From positions 5,741,501 through 5,805,500 of the forward strand of contig OX359195.1 in the NCBI GenBank assembly GCA_947172415.1: 64,000 bases of DNA. The letters are read 5' to 3'. The translations under genes and the position numbers were made by a program. Below the pieces are notes generated by a model that searched no databases, was not told the DNA's origin, and worked only from the letters and a program-made list of their open reading frames with translations. Shown here in pieces: positions 1-61,200 of the stretch; the first letter of the stretch is position 1; every line of letters starts with the position of its first letter. The DNA is from Chondrosia reniformis (taxonomy: Eukaryota > Porifera > Demospongiae > Chondrillida > Chondrillidae).

Positions 1-2153
1 CTATACTCATACATTCCTGTAGTATGCTACTATACTCATACATTCCTGTAGTATGCTACTATACTCATACATTCCTGTAGTATGCTACTATACTCATACA
101 TTCCTGTAGTATGCTACTATACTCATACATTCCTGTAGTATGCTACTATACTCATACATTCCTGTAGTATGCTACTATACTCATACATTCCTGTAGTATG
201 CTACTATACTCATACATTCCTGTAGTATGCTACTATACTCATACATTCCTGTAGTATGCTACTATACTCATACATTCCTGTAGTATGCTACTATACTCAT
301 ACATTCCTGTAGTATGCTACTATACTCATACATTCCTGTAGTATGCTACTATACTCATACATTCCTGTAGTATGCTACTATACTCATACATTCCTGTAGT
401 ATGCTACTATACTCATACATTCCTGTAGTATGCTACTATACTCATACATTCCTGTAGTATGCTACTATACTCGTACATTCCTGTAGTATGCTACTATACT
501 CATACATTCCTGTAGTATGCTACTATACTCATACATTCCTGTAGTATGCTACTATACTCATACATTCCTGTAGTATGCTACTATACTCATACATTCCTGT
601 AGTATGCTACTATACTCATACATTCCTGTAGTATGCTACTATACTCATACATTCCTGTAGTATGCTACTATACTCATACATTCCTGTAGTATGCTACTAT
701 ACTCATACATTCCTGTAGTATGCTACTATACTCATACATTCCTGTAGTATGCTACTATACTCATACATTCCTGTAGTATGCTACTATACTCATACATTCC
801 TGTAGTATGCTACTATACTCATACATTCCTGTAGTATGCTACTATACTCATACATTCCTGTAGTATGCTACTATACTCATACATTCCTGTAGTATGCTAC
901 TATACTCATACATTCCTGTAGTATGCTACTATACTCATACATTCCTGTAGTATGCTACTATACTCGTACATTCCTGTAGTATGCTACTATACTCATACAT
1001 TCCTGTAGTATGCTACTATACTCATACATTCCTGTAGTATGCTACTATACTCATACATTCCTGTAGTATGCTACTATACTCATACATTCCTGTAGTATGC
1101 TACTATACTCATACATTCCTGTAGTATGCTACTATACTCATACATTCCTGTAGTATGCTACTATACTCATACATTCCTGTAGTATGCTACTATACTCATA
1201 CATTCCTGTAGTATGCTACTATACTCATACATTCCTGTAGTATGCTACTATACTCATACATTCCTGTAGTATGCTACTATACTCATACATTCCTGTAGTA
1301 TGCTACTATACTCGTACATTCCTGTAGTATGCTACTATACTCGTACATTCCTGTAGTATGCTACTATACTCGTACATTCCTGTAGTATGCTACTATACTC
1401 ATACATTCCTGTAGTATGCTACTATACTCATACATTCCTGTAGTATGCTACTATACTCATACATTCCTGTAGTATGCTACTATACTCATACATTCCTGTA
1501 GTATGCTACTATACTCATACATTCCTGTAGTATGCTACTATACTCATACATTCCTGTAGTATGCTACTATACTCATACATTCCTGTAGTATGCTACTATA
1601 CTCATACATTCCTGTAGTATGCTACTATACTCATACATTCCTGTAGTATGCTACTATACTCGTACATTCCTGTAGTATGCTACTATACTCATACATTCCT
1701 GTAGTATGCTACTATACTCATACATTCCTGTAGTATGCTACTATACTCATACATTCCTGTAGTATGCTACTATACTCATACATTCCTGTAGTATGCTACT
1801 ATACTCATACATTCCTGTAGTATGCTACTATACTCATACATTCCTGTAGTATGCTACTATACTCATACATTCCTGTAGTATGCTACTATACTCATACATT
1901 CCTGTAGTATGCTACTATACTCATACATTCCTGTAGTATGCTACTATACTCATACATTCCTGTAGTATGCTACTATACTCATACATTCCTGTAGTATGCT
2001 ACTATACTCGTACATTCCTGTAGTATGCTACTATACTCATACATTCCTGTAGTATGCTACTATACTCGTACATTCCTGTAGTATGCTACTATACTCATAC
2101 ATTCCTGTAGTATGCTACTATACTCATACATTCCTGTAGTATGCTACTATACT
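1..2153. repeat. 29-bp satellite array, about 74 copies
   Basis: Head-to-tail 29-bp units fill the window from base 1 (the array continues beyond the left edge) to 2153. Units are almost identical; eight carry an A-to-G change in CTCATAC (at 473, 966, 1314, 1343, 1372, 1662, 2010 and 2068), all in the same unit position, spaced by multiples of 29. Each unit contains ATTCCTGTAG followed by TATGCTACTATACT, which is exactly the 3' splice site and first 14 coding bases of the tetraspanin exon starting at 2140. Internal CATAC...GTATG inverted repeats are present in every unit. There are no spacers, so it is a satellite and not a CRISPR array. Confidence 0.97.
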
Positions 2154-4348
2154 GGTGTTCGTATTCTTGTTCCTACTTGGCGGCGGTATTGCAGCTGCTG
2201 TGGAGAGAAATTCTGTGAGTGTGTTACTGCATGAAAAATCTAAGATACCATTTTCCTACATGCTATGCCTATTCTGTAAAAGAGCCTATAGGGGAACTAA
2301 ACCTGAAGAGAGCTTTGGATGAAGATACAAGAGTCTTTTCTTCCTTCTTTTCCCTTCTTTCATCTTCTTCTCCACTGGGTCAGACAGCCGTGATACTGGG
2401 AGTCTTTGTCTTTTCTTTATCTTGATCTCCTGTGAATCCTTGGCATGTACATGTTGCACCATTGTACAATTGCTGTATTTATATGAGTTGTGACTATAAG
2501 TGTTACTACCTAAACAGTAATTCCATCTGAGCCTGCATGATGTGGAGAATATTCCAGACATTTTATCAATATCCTGTGTATAGTATGAAGGTGGGAAGGC
2601 GTTGGTCTGTCCTACAGCTTTGTTATGACTTTGTTACTGAGCTTCTGAAAGGAATGATATAGTTTTTTTTGGAGTTGCAATATAGAGCTAAACTATATTT
2701 TATATAAACTATATTACGACCAGAAGATTTATCAAAACAAACTGCATTTTTAGATGCTCAAAGAGTCGAAAGATGTACCATCTTAAAGATAACTATATTT
2801 TGTGATTTTAGATTGAAGATGCTTTGCAAGGTGCAAGTAATAAAACCCTCCACTCTGCTACAGCCAACCCTGAAAATATCCCTGAAAATAATCTTTACAC
2901 CTCATGGAATTCAGTGCAAAACGAAGTGAGTACATGTATTGTTATTGTACAGTGCTGTGAATTCTTATTTTAATGTGTATCTATGTAATATACATGGTAT
3001 AAATGTACATACTGAGCCTAACCAATTTATTTGTTAGTCTATGATTTGTATTTGTGAAAAATTTACAGTAAATCACCATCAAACATGAGACTTACTGTAT
3101 GACTTACTCTATATCTTGTCTTCTTGTACTGCTAGTTCCACTGCTGTGGAGTGATTGCCTACACTGATTGGTTGAGTGCAGACTGGAACACTACTTGTAC
3201 TAACAATGGCACTTATTCTTGTGTGCCAGCCTCCTGTTGCAAGGATGCCAGTAACTGCACTGTCATTGCTTATACTAATACTACTCTCTATTATGATGAA
3301 GTAAGAGAAATTCATACTCTCTATGTTTTTATTTGTTCAGCAATTATTGTTCTAAATTAAATTTCTATTTAATATACATATTAATCTGTGTCTGATTAAG
3401 AAAGTGACACTTGTGGCTTTAAAGCTAGCATTTGATTTGCATATACGACGAGAACAGGAATTTATAAAATATGATAAAATTGCAAGTTTATTTTTTGTGT
3501 TAATAAGGAAAATTTATATGAAGTGCGTACATCTTTTTTGTAAATGGTCTTTTTGAGATCTTCACACTGAATGTCTACTGGTACTTTTGTTAGTTAGGAT
3601 TTATTACCAGTCTAAGTCAAAAAGGATTTTTACAAGCTACGTAGTTCTTTATTTTATGTGCTCCAAAGTGTCCAAATTAAACTGTCCAAATGTTACCCAT
3701 ACATGAATGAGGCATCCAACTATTATTATTATTCCTATGCCTGTATATGGTATTCTGTAGGGATGCATTTCAAAGCTGAGATCAACCCTGGATCAGTACA
3801 TAGGAGCTGTGATTGGAGTTGCTATTTTCCTTGCTATAGTACTCGTGAGTTACTGTACATGCCCCTAGATGTAACATAGAGAGCCAAGGATTCACAGAAA
3901 ATCAAGATAAAGAAAAAGACAAAGACTCCCAGGATCACTGATGTGACCCAGTGGAGAAGAAGATGAAAGAAGGGAAAAGAAGGAAGAAAAGACTCCTGTA
4001 TCTTCATCCAAAGCTCTCTTCAGGTTTAGTTCCCCTATAGGCTCTTTTACAGAATAGGCATAGCATGTAGGAAAATGGTATCTTAGATTTTTCATGAAGG
4101 AATGGTAATAGTACTAATGTGCTTAATGGTTTCTGGTCTATATTAGCTGGCAAAATCCAAAATCCTTTACCAATTGTGTAGAATTTGTCTTTCATGTTTT
4201 TAATGTTATTTTGTTGATCATTTTATGTTGTTTATATTTACAAATTGTTGTTTTATTTGTTTAGTTGGTTATTGCTATCATCACCTATATTGTCACTTTC
4301 TGCAAAACTGATTCCAACTCCTATTCCCGTTTTGATGAGCCAAAATGA
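2140..4348 (+). CDS. Tetraspanin, 5'-truncated (last five exons)
   Basis: Exons 2140-2214, 2812-2925, 3136-3300, 3761-3844 and 4265-4348 (TGA) join in phase 0 with GT-AG borders to give the last 173 residues of a tetraspanin. The first exon encodes the end of TM3 (LGGGIAAAVERNS). The large extracellular loop has the family CCG motif (FHCCGV), the PxSCC motif (VPASCCKD) and a GC pair before TM4 (GCISKLRSTLD), with several N-x-S/T sites. TM4 (IGAVIGVAIFLAIVL...) is followed by a short cytoplasmic tail ending SRFDEPK. Tetraspanins organise plasma-membrane microdomains. The N-terminal half (TM1, TM2, small loop) must lie left of the satellite, outside the window. An inverted pair of a dispersed repeat sits in its introns. 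The exact first-exon start rests on the acceptor at 2138-2139, since an in-frame TAG lies immediately upstream. Confidence 0.9.
2230..2444 (+). repeat. Dispersed repeat family R1, full-length copy
   Basis: About 215 bp, nearly identical to the reverse complement of 3883-4096. Diagnostic strings are CCTATAGGGGAACTAAACC, GAGAGCTTTGGATGAAGATA and CTCCACTGGGTCAGACAG. Shorter, more diverged pieces occur at 16391-16475, 23085-23140, 26488-26610 and about 60478-60510. Non-coding, with no transposase; SINE or MITE-like nature is inferred from dispersion only. Confidence 0.85.
3883..4096 (-). repeat. Dispersed repeat family R1, inverted copy
   Basis: Reverse-complement partner of 2230-2444 with only a handful of mismatches over about 214 bp. 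It lies in the last intron of the truncated tetraspanin, so the two copies flank exons at 2812-2925, 3136-3300 and 3761-3844. Confidence 0.85.
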
Positions 4349-5310: not shown

Positions 5311-7086
5311 ATGAAGTTCAAGGCAAAGCTCTCAAGTATTGGTATCTGTGGAAACATTATCAAAGTACTCTTTATCGGCTTTAATGTGGTATTTCTGGTA
5401 AGTAATATGTTTATTTAACATTAACATTTGTATATTCATTAGATTTAACTTTATATTATGTATCTAAATAAAGACAGAAATATTTATAAGCCACATGTAT
5501 TTGTTCACAGTTGAAATTGAAGGCAGTAACACCTATATAATATTGCATATGTATAGCTACAGTATTTACTCTACACTACGTATATGTAATATTCCTTGTA
5601 TTGGCTAACACTCCTCCAATTAGTTTCAGGTGCCCATATCCCAGACATTTATACTTCTCTCCCTCTTCATCTGCAGCTCATTGGTCTGGGAATAATTGCT
5701 GGAGGCATCTATCTCATTGTTACTAATAATTCCTTTGCGTTCATCACCCAATCAGCTGTTTCTGCTGCTGCAATCATTATTGCAGCAGGAGTGGTCACAA
5801 CAGTGTTGGCTATTTTTGGGATCATTGCTGCATTGGCTCAGTGGAGATTCATACTCATCCTTGTGAGTATGTCATGACTATGAACATGTAGAATCTATTT
5901 TGATTTCCCACTTCTATATGCAAAGATGTTTCATCATCATATGGCATGTGTACAATTATGATATATATTTTAGTAATTTCTTTCTAATTTACTTGCGAAT
6001 AGTATTCAGTTATTATTGTAATCATAATCCTTTTGGAGATCGCAGCTGGAATTTATGGATTTATTGAATGGAGAAACATAGTGAGTTATATAATTAAGTG
6101 AATTATGTGTGATAATCACTTTTCTCATATACACACATGTACAGTATATTATGCACATTTAGGGAGTACTTATGCAAGCAATTTATACAGTATTCTGACG
6201 TTTTAAGCTCAATACAGTGCTAATTATAGAAGGGCCTACGTACGTATATATGATCATTATGTATAGAGTATTATGCCAATGCATTGCATACGTATGTTGC
6301 AATTGTTTTCTTAATATAATTCCAAAACTGTTTATTATTATATTTATATATGTTTTGACCACTCTGCTAATGTTCTCTCAATTATCTTTATGTTATAATA
6401 ACAATATTGCAAGTGGTATATACATATATTAAGAACCAGGATATAGTTTGCCAACTGCAAGTAAGTACAGTATATACGTATGTGGTATATTGTTATAGAT
6501 CAATGGACAAGTCAGAAATAGGTTTGAAATAGCTCTTAATATGTTTGGTCAAGGGAAAAGTGATGTTGATGCTGCTGTGAACTTCTTTCAAACCAGAGTT
6601 AGTATACATGCATAAAAAGATTACATGTGCTCAAATCAAATTTTAGACTATGATTTATACATGTTACATAAATATCACCCTATACATTTGTACTTCCTAC
6701 AGTTTTCCTGCTGTGGTATTGATAATGCAAGTGATTGGATGAAGAACACAAGTGATCGGATGAAGAACACGTTTATTGATGATGCAAGTGATTTGATGAA
6801 GAACACAAGTGATAGGATGAAGAACACAAGTGATTGGATGAACAACACGTTTTATAGCAACATTAGCTACCAGCTCCCAAATTCTTGCTGCAAAGCCAAT
6901 ACACCTATTTGCATGCTGAATAACAGCTTTACCGAGGGCTGTTTCAATGCAACCATAGACTTCATATCAACCAACATTTATGCTATTGGAGCAGTTGGCA
7001 TTGCTGTTGGCATTGTTGAGCTGATTGGAGCTGTCCTGGCAATGATACTTTGTGTATGCATACATAGAGCTATTAAGTTGGAGTAA
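5311..7086 (+). CDS. Tetraspanin, complete, with repeat-expanded large loop
   Basis: Exons 5311-5397, 5677-5862, 6003-6080, 6499-6597 and 6703-7086, all phase 0, give 277 residues. TM1 follows a short lysine-rich start (MKFKAK); TM1, TM2, TM3 and TM4 are all visible as hydrophobic runs, with a polar residue or Gly/Ala pattern typical of tetraspanins. The large loop has FSCCGI (CCG motif), LPNSCCK (PxSCC) and EGCFNAT. Just after CCG lies an imperfect heptapeptide repeat, (S/T)D-x-MKNT, five times, each with an N-x-S/T sequon. The tail ends HRAIKLE. It lies head-to-tail with the truncated tetraspanin, sharing its intron phase, which suggests tandem duplication. Start chosen at the first ATG before TM1. 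Confidence 0.92.
6730..6849 (+). repeat. Coding minisatellite in tetraspanin loop
   Basis: A 21-bp unit (AGTGATTGGATGAAGAACAC plus A) repeats about five times with substitutions and one short in-frame interruption (FIDDA). It encodes (S/T)D(W/R/L)MKNT heptads and keeps frame throughout. Confidence 0.9.
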
Positions 7087-58234: not shown

Positions 58235-61200
58235 CTACTCATCATATTTGCTAAGAGACCCTTGAAGCTTCTGAACAATCTAAATGAAGAGAAGTAAACC
58301 AGTAATAATAACATATTATACATACTGTATGTACATACATACATATATGCTACAATATAAATAACACTAGGGGAAGTAAAATTTAGAATTAAATCTTGCA
58401 AATGCAAATTTCAGAATTATTTATAGACTGATGTGAGTAACGAAATACAACCTTCAAAGGCTACCTCCAACACACTCTAAAGTGTAGACTTCAAATAATA
58501 TGTAAATTTGTCTATTTAGTGGAAAAAAAACCACGAAATGTATTCTGAAGGCATAGACAGTCTTTCAATAGAAGTCTGCACACATGCAACATTTTCTGAG
58601 ATATACAATATTCTCATAAATTAAAGTTTCTTTATTTCAAGTAAGTAAGTAAGATCTGTCAAAATAGGAATTTGGATTAAGAAAGTTCCTACTGTGTATC
58701 GAGTTTTGCTTGTGGATGTATTATTGCACACTGAATTAAAGATTTCACCAAAGACAACCTTATAAGTATTTAATAGTCTAATGTACTCACATTTTGATAG
58801 AAGGTAATTTGTGATGTTAACAAATTTTGCATCATCAATTTAAAATCAACAACACGTTCGTGTTGAAAATGATGTATCTCAGCTGCAAGCATAGAATAGA
58901 AGAACATTAATAGTTGAAATATTCTGACATGTACATACGTATATACAAGAAATTGTGGGGTATACCTAAAAGTGCTGTATTCACAGTCTCAGCTCTGCTT
59001 CTAATGTCAGCCAATTCAGTGAACTGGACAAAAGTGAAAAAAAAACAAAGATGATTAATCCAAAATCTGATTTAAGGCCATTTCTGTGTGACTCCCACAA
59101 CGTAACCTTGTGACATTATACGACAATGGAGTCATAAACGTATGTATACTTACATCAATGACTCCGTCCAACTTCTCTCCTTCCCTCACTTTACCAGTTG
59201 ATTTCTAAAAAAGAGGAAAAAAAGGGAAAAAGAACTACATACATTACACCAATAGAGACTATCTACGTAAATGGGTACATACACACTAGCAGTAGGACAT
59301 TTCATACTTGGAAAAACGTGCACTTACGTACGTATGTATGTGTGTACATATGTATGCAGTTCAGTCTACAAGACAGAGATGTCACATTTAAACAATGCCA
59401 ATTCTGAGAACAAGAAGGCAGATGACATATGGGGGAGGCACTCATCCTATTTGTTTAAATAGAGCCCCGGGCCTCTATTTCATATCAGTCATTTTGGAGC
59501 CTGCCTCAATTTGACCCTGGCTTCTATAATATAATTCTCTTGGTGTCAGCACTCAACTCCTGGCACTCAACTCCTGGCACCCAACTCCCGGCACCCAACT
59601 CCCGGCACCCACTCACTTAGTCTTCGCTGTCTTTTACTTAAAGGAGACACAGTAGCTAGGACTATTTCTTTGGTTTTGCTACGTACCCAATGTTTTGATT
59701 CAAGAGACCCTGGCCTCTATTCGTTGCCCAGCTTATACATGGACAAATACAGTACCTACGTACGTATGTTAAGTATCCTAGCCTCATCAGCCTAGCTTTA
59801 TTGAGCCTCATCAGCCTAGCTTTATTGAGCCTCATCAGCCTAGCTTTATTGAGCCTCATCAGCCTAGCTTTATTGAGCCTCATCAGCCTAGCTTTATTGA
59901 GCCTCATCAGCCTAGCTTTATTGAGCCTCATCAGCCTAGCTTTATTGAGCCTCATCAGCCTAGCTTTATTGAGCCTCATCAGCCTAGCTTTATTGAGCCT
60001 CATCAGCCTAGCTTTATTGAGCCTCATCAGCCTAGCTTTATTGAGCCTCATCAGCCTAGCTTTATTGAGCCTCATCAGCCTACGTAGCTTTATTCAGAGT
60101 ACAGCTTCAAGGGTCCCAGAATATGAAGAGTTGACTCACCTTAGCCAAGTGTTGTGTATCTGGAAACTCTTCTAGTAGACCAAGATACTCCTTCAGGATA
60201 TCCAGAGCTGGGATCATATCGTGTTTAGGCTGCTCAGTGTACAAGTCAGCAATTTGTTCATACACTTCTCCAGTAAACTGCATGGCCTGATTTACACCCT
60301 TTGCATCTACATACGTACATACATACATACATAATATATACGTACGTATTTACAAAATGTACGTACGTATATCATACGTTTTGCCTTGGAATAATTTAAA
60401 ACACCATTTTCTTAAAGAAATGGTTGATATATATATTAGGCTGAGAATATATTTAGAATAAACTGTTTTCCTAGAAAACCTATAGAGCTTTAGATGAGGA
60501 CCTGTTTGGTTTAATAAGGTTAAAGATAATACATCTGATCTGTATGTATGTATGGTTTAATAAGCAATTGAGGGGCTACGTAACTGGGAGTGTGCCTTAA
60601 GAGCTTACATGGTTCTGTTTCTGCAGCAAAGCAGTCAGACATTGTTCTGAATACCCCAGCCATACGATGAAACTCTCTCATAAAAGCTGCAAAATGGAGA
60701 TTATAGATTAGAGAGTATACGTAGCTGTTTTATATACAAATTGAGTAAGCTACGATGCTTGCTGTGCAAGGAAAATGAATTTCAAAATCGACTTCACAAT
60801 TGGTATGACAGAAGCACTTTACATTCAATTACATGTCAGTTTCAATTTAATATACTATGCAATTAAAGAACTGACATTTAATAACATTGGCAAAAGTTAT
60901 AAAGACATACGTACTGCACGGAATCCTTCAGAGTCTGATGGAAAACTTACGTCCTGACATCTTGGTACAATGATCTTCAAATTTTTCTTTCATTTTCATG
61001 CAAGAATCAGTCAAGGTTGTGTGAAAGTGGTCAAAATTGTCAATCCTGCCTTCACTAAACACACAAGTGTAGAATATATGACTTGGTCAACACTTATGAA
61101 ATCTTTATTGTATGTACAAATGAACATATACGTATGTAAGTGTACATATAGGTATACGTATAGTCATATGATACAAGACACTATAGCTCATATGGTTTGG

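Follow-up and report, generated by a model that had tools for sequence, protein, structure and literature searches.

A minisatellite repeating an intron-exon junction with its acceptor in a predicted tetraspanin gene of the sponge Chondrosia reniformis

Tandem repeats that carry copies of the splice site of the exon beside them have been described in human genes, and a further one is found in a tetraspanin gene of the sponge Chondrosia reniformis, in a window of 64,000 nucleotides (contig OX359195.1, here C7, positions C7:5741501-5805500), where a 29-bp unit repeats the junction of intron 3 and exon 4. A minisatellite in an interferon-induced transcript (IFI6/G1P3, also named 6-16) is said in a title of 1995 to repeat a splice donor, thus lying on the donor side, whereas the sponge array lies on the acceptor side. 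The variable number tandem repeat of human ABCA7 intron 18 is likewise a donor repeat: a 25-bp exon-adjacent minisatellite whose unit starts with the splice donor and of which one unit can be retained, leading to a frameshift. The 844ins68 variant of human cystathionine beta-synthase (CBS) resembles the sponge array in repeating an intron-exon junction with its acceptor; according to passages of PMC2630376 and PMC7490669, a duplication of 52 intron and 16 exon bases has placed two acceptors ahead of the same exon. The PMC7490669 passage identifies the doubled site as a 3′ splice site, although that of PMC2630376 says “donor”, and the latter reports that the downstream copy is strongly favoured in splicing. 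Unlike the sponge array with its 77 extra copies, however, CBS 844ins68 has one, with a known splicing outcome. Internal tandem repeats in human segmental-duplication genes have units averaging 30 bp and can alter splicing when they lie at exon-intron boundaries, yet, in the passages of PMC2812944 concerned, they average about 4 copies, half lie in coding sequence and the boundary effect consists of novel introns, compared with 78 copies in the sponge. The sponge array belongs to this known kind, as TGTAGTATGCT, the splice site of the adjacent exon, is present in 78/78 of its cores. Hence the view of a preliminary description of this DNA, that amplification of such a junction is unusual, needs to be tempered by the human cases; still, in the open-licence PMC literature, judged mostly from listings, we found no report of a minisatellite repeating an acceptor, nor of this scale.

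Tandem Repeats Finder detected one array at window positions 1-2153, with a period of 29, 74.2 copies and 99% matches. The array crosses the window start: in the 74 kb examined, the + strand contains 78 exact copies of a 24-base core, ATTCCTGTAGTATGCTACTATACT, and the - strand none. They run from C7:5741397, which lies 104 bases upstream of the window's first base, to window 2153. Seventy-four of the 78 cores begin within the window, the last occupying 2130-2153. The repetition seen in the preliminary description is therefore real, but its count of about 74 acceptors becomes 77 decoys plus the terminal site. It had also described the unit as the intron end plus 14 exon bases, and the core indeed joins the final 10 bases of intron 3 to the initial 14 of exon 4; the unit, though, includes a five-base spacer as well, absent at either edge of the junction. 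The 77 spacers read CATAC (69) or CGTAC (8), and this A/G is the sole variable base among the 77 units. The whole array spans 2,257 bases; its part at window 1-2129 (+) consists of decoys. Two further readings of the array were rejected: it is not a coding repeat (longest open stretch in any frame, 28 codons forward and 27 reverse), and the spacing by 12 of variant units 37, 49, 61 and 73 was dropped as higher-order structure at a permutation value of 0.276.

A pattern search of the unit with up to three mismatches over the assembly (117,379,552 bases in 15 contigs, C7 having 8,459,200) gave 77 forward matches, 77/77 within the array at the tetraspanin locus, and no reverse-strand match; the reversed control pattern matched nowhere in the assembly at the same tolerance, and the viral contigs contained no exact match. 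In passages of the genome note (PMC12181767), the genome is given as 117.37 Mb in 14 chromosomes and a mitochondrion, with 8.46 Mb for chromosome 7 and GCA_947172445.1 as the alternate haplotype. What had been called a satellite is accordingly a tandem array without counterparts at other loci, and its 29-bp units (minisatellites range from about 10 to 100 bp), 99% matches and single locus make single-locus minisatellite the better name.

At 2130-2139 (+) the intron end, ATTCCTGTAG, occurs for the last time and would form the terminal 3′ splice site, with exon 4 starting at 2140, as previously proposed. This exon of 75 nt (2140-2214, +, phase 0-0) is open, reads YATILVFVFLFLLGGGIAAAVERNS and is followed by GTGAGT; its initial 14 bases close the last repeat core, and its transmembrane segment is presumably number 3 of the tetraspanin. 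Intron 3 begins with the donor-like GTAAGT at C7:5741329 and would measure 78 nt if spliced to the first acceptor but 2,311 nt if spliced to the last. The identity of the gene was borne out by the predicted 263-aa product of the terminal acceptor, which matched Pfam PF00335 (Tetraspanin) at E 9.6e-37 with 127.3 bits against a gathering cut-off of 32.1. The CCG motif of the large loop is present as FHCCG in exon 6, and C156, C157 and G158 are invariant across three aligned C. reniformis tetraspanins.

The same three proteins, namely the host product, that of an adjacent paralog within the window (exons at 5311-5397, 5677-5862, 6003-6080, 6499-6597 and 6703-7086) and the C9 paralog, which has an uninterrupted frame, align across the codons of the core (IYATI / LYSVI / IFAVT), with an overall identity of 27% for the window paralog and 25% for the C9 paralog. 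In the window paralog, the matching exon is preceded by ...ATAG and has the same tyrosine codon, TAT, as its first. Because the paralogs align across the core codons and the adjacent one has an exon border at the same codon, the core is best taken as ancestral gene sequence that was amplified, in agreement with the source suggested in the preliminary description. GGTGT stands directly 3′ of the last core (2154-2158, +) and directly 5′ of the first, both copies in the 29-base register at the spacer position; it occurs 44 times in 74 kb, and such a register match has a chance of about 0.0006 before allowing for its post-hoc choice. Tandem repeats abound around the gene, with 20 non-overlapping arrays in 94 kb, 16 of them with a period of at least 7, so that an ordinary expansion that happened to cover a splice junction suffices as explanation. 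Among these 16, the splice-junction array has the most copies, 77.8, the others reaching no more than 12.6. Only one site varies in 77 units, so the expansion or homogenisation looks recent. On this sequence evidence the array appears, with good support, to be a local single-locus minisatellite grown from the tetraspanin's own intron 3-exon 4 junction, and we see no sign of selection for it.

For the protein, the choice among acceptors would be decisive. We spliced 11 of the 78 in silico, those 0-7, 30, 76 and 77 units upstream of the terminal one, and among these the terminal acceptor alone gave the full 263-aa tetraspanin. The acceptor one unit upstream gave 168 aa, that two units upstream 135 aa and the eight lying three or more units upstream (3-7, 30, 76, 77) 118 aa each, which bears out the earlier frame arithmetic of a shift for one or two units and a stop in the third. 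The 118-aa product reaches 29.0 bits for PF00335, under the cut-off of 32.1. All 10 decoys tested bring a premature stop 230-2,584 nt upstream of the final exon junction; if the 50-nt rule is valid in sponges, these transcripts would be expected to undergo nonsense-mediated decay. Since the periodicity leaves every forward frame of the array open for at most 28 codons, the remaining decoys should act alike. Neither ATTATTCTCTTTATT joined to TATGCTACTATACTGGTGTT, as the terminal acceptor would give, nor ATTATTCTCTTTATT joined to TATGCTACTATACTCATACA, as a decoy with an A spacer would give, was present in the 74 kb of DNA checked.

As judged from passages of PMC9225289, acceptor choice has so far been studied with few competing splice sites in test genes. 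In the sponge array, the local sequence hardly differs among the 78 copies, so that splice-site strength is near constant and position is the main difference; use of the first acceptor would thus point to scanning or proximity, use of the last to exon definition, and a spread to stochastic choice. We scored the acceptors with a matrix of 23 nearby ones picked by eye, 10 from the two tetraspanin genes of the window and 13 from the gene downstream, presumably ATG7, leaving out the array's own acceptors and at least 2 of unclear place in the downstream gene. The median leave-one-out score of the 23 was 5.0. By sequence only, ordinary internal acceptors and the terminal one scored 5.5; the score rose to 7.2 where a G spacer precedes the acceptor and to 8.3 for the first acceptor. 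Among the 4,267 AGs beyond the array, 7.3% reach the score of an internal site or more, which leaves the score on its own unable to discriminate. The sole YTNAY within 40 nt before the terminal acceptor is CTCAT at -14, a motif whose branch-point A is lost in the A-to-G spacer variant. RNA structure was tried as a selector and rejected: in a fold of 12 units with the terminal core and exon, 13/13 acceptor AGs were predicted to be paired, and as the terminal AG is paired like the others, structure fails to explain the choice. The predicted structure is also not exceptional: when the units were dinucleotide-shuffled, 18/300 arrays matched or exceeded its stability. Local sequence is thus unable to single out the terminal acceptor.

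We consider it probable that the junction minisatellite expanded recently and unselected, that functional protein is made through the terminal acceptor and that a substantial share of transcripts is lost upstream. The first duplication may have arisen by slippage, perhaps between two GGTGT copies 29 bases apart that flanked the core, with expansion and homogenisation to follow and no selection for the array. All functional protein would then come from the terminal acceptor, picked across the 75-nt exon 4 by exon definition with the downstream donor. A considerable part of the transcripts would instead be spliced to acceptors further upstream, the first being the likeliest, and run into early stops. 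Such an allele would be hypomorphic, with its output set by the acceptor that wins. Cross-exon proximity has been demonstrated for donors (passages of PMC9225289) and, carried over by analogy, would favour the terminal acceptor. The precedent of CBS 844ins68, the closest natural parallel, also speaks for the downstream site (PMC2630376). Several observations weigh against this reading. The slippage model leaves unexplained the shift from GGTGT at the edges to CATAC within the array. The first acceptor outscores the ordinary internal and terminal sites (8.3 vs 5.5), lies only 78 nt from the donor and has at -31 a branch-point-like TTAAT, the sole YTNAY in the 78-nt intron. Scanning takes the first AG past the branch point (PMC1431707) and proximity makes the upstream of competing acceptors win across a short intron (PMC9225289); by such rules the tetraspanin allele could be close to null. 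In addition, G-runs in CBS are reported as silencers of the competing site, according to a title cited in PMC7490669. Our bet, from the sequence, is nevertheless a mixture of acceptors, with functional protein all from the last.

Of the alternatives, the one that survives best, though we hold it to be doubtful, is that the first acceptor is used almost always, served by the donor and branch point of the ancestral 78-nt intron. Translation would stop 28 codons into the array, exon 3 would not be joined to TATGCTACTATACTGGTG and the product would be lost from this haplotype. The position and score of the first acceptor, the TTAAT at -31 and the scanning and proximity rules just cited (PMC1431707, PMC9225289) all speak for such a near-null allele. 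Against it, the inferred downstream exons are open with canonical GT/AG ends, which is weak evidence given that the expansion looks recent, and the CBS 844ins68 precedent, in the passage of PMC2630376, goes the other way. A further reading, in our view unlikely, is that the sponge spliceosome reliably takes the terminal of 78 locally identical acceptors by exon definition, allele length setting the productive fraction; if true, an early-branching animal would skip 77 competent acceptors nearer the donor, contrary to simple first-AG scanning.

A selected rheostat, in which array length tunes, by way of decoy acceptors and nonsense-mediated decay, what share of the tetraspanin mRNA is productive, seems improbable to us. 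It would fit the premature stop from every one of the 10 decoys tested, the core kept exact in 78/78 copies and the confinement of variation to one base, the A of the sole YTNAY within 40 nt upstream of the terminal acceptor, but recent expansion predicts the homogeneity equally well and the G units show no significant pattern of position (permutation 0.276). That the real array is much shorter or longer than assembled is more improbable still: near-identical tandem arrays are easily misassembled, yet eight variant units interrupt the repetition and HiFi reads, of which PMC12181767 gives 0.80 million totalling 10.31 Gb, should be long enough to contain 2.26 kb with ease. Hardly credible is the insertion of an unrelated satellite that lent exon 4 its acceptor, the outcome that the preliminary description had named as fatal to its own account, for although GGTGT on both outer sides can be read as a 5-base target-site duplication, the unit matches nowhere else in the assembly at up to three mismatches nor exactly in the viral contigs, its core codons align with the paralogs, and exon 4 would lose its acceptor and first codons without the core.

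As for the rest of the host gene, the DNA upstream of the window gave exons 1-3, with exon limits here and throughout inferred from frame, splice motifs and paralogs: exon 1 at C7:5738999-5739067, exon 2 of 42 nt and exon 3 at C7:5741170-5741328. Within the window, on the + strand, the model continues with exon 5 (2812-2925), exon 6 with the CCG motif (3136-3300), exon 7 (3761-3844) and exon 8, which holds the stop codon (4265-4348). The inferred intron 2 (L013:9364-9669, about 640 to 330 bases before the window) is absent from the window paralog and contains an ATCC-type array; GTCAGC is its most probable donor, and reading on in frame from exon 2 meets no stop within the array, only a single TAA right before exon 3. 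This may be a recent intron derived from a repeat insertion. Introns 4 and 7 carry the two arms of a 159-nt inverted repeat, 98% complementary (window 2224-2382 and 3944-4102), around exons 5-7, which belongs to a dispersed family (at least 44 matches from 40 scored among 2,121 first-look candidates). If paired in the pre-mRNA, the arms could favour circular RNA or exon skipping. About 117 bases separate the tetraspanin start from a start on the opposite strand (L013:7381-7499), whose frame begins MATATSIATAPEKVFNFNLGVLGHIDSGKTSL and looks like that of a translation GTPase resembling EEFSEC; perhaps the two share a promoter.

Two other repeats of the window deserve mention. An in-frame 21-nt repeat (SDWMKNT-like) at 6717-6848 follows right after the CCG motif of the window paralog, within its coding exon 6703-7086, and a 24-bp array at 59780-60082 has 12.6 copies at 100% identity, two of its three + frames being open, as SLISLALL and PHQPSFIE repeats, in the portion examined.
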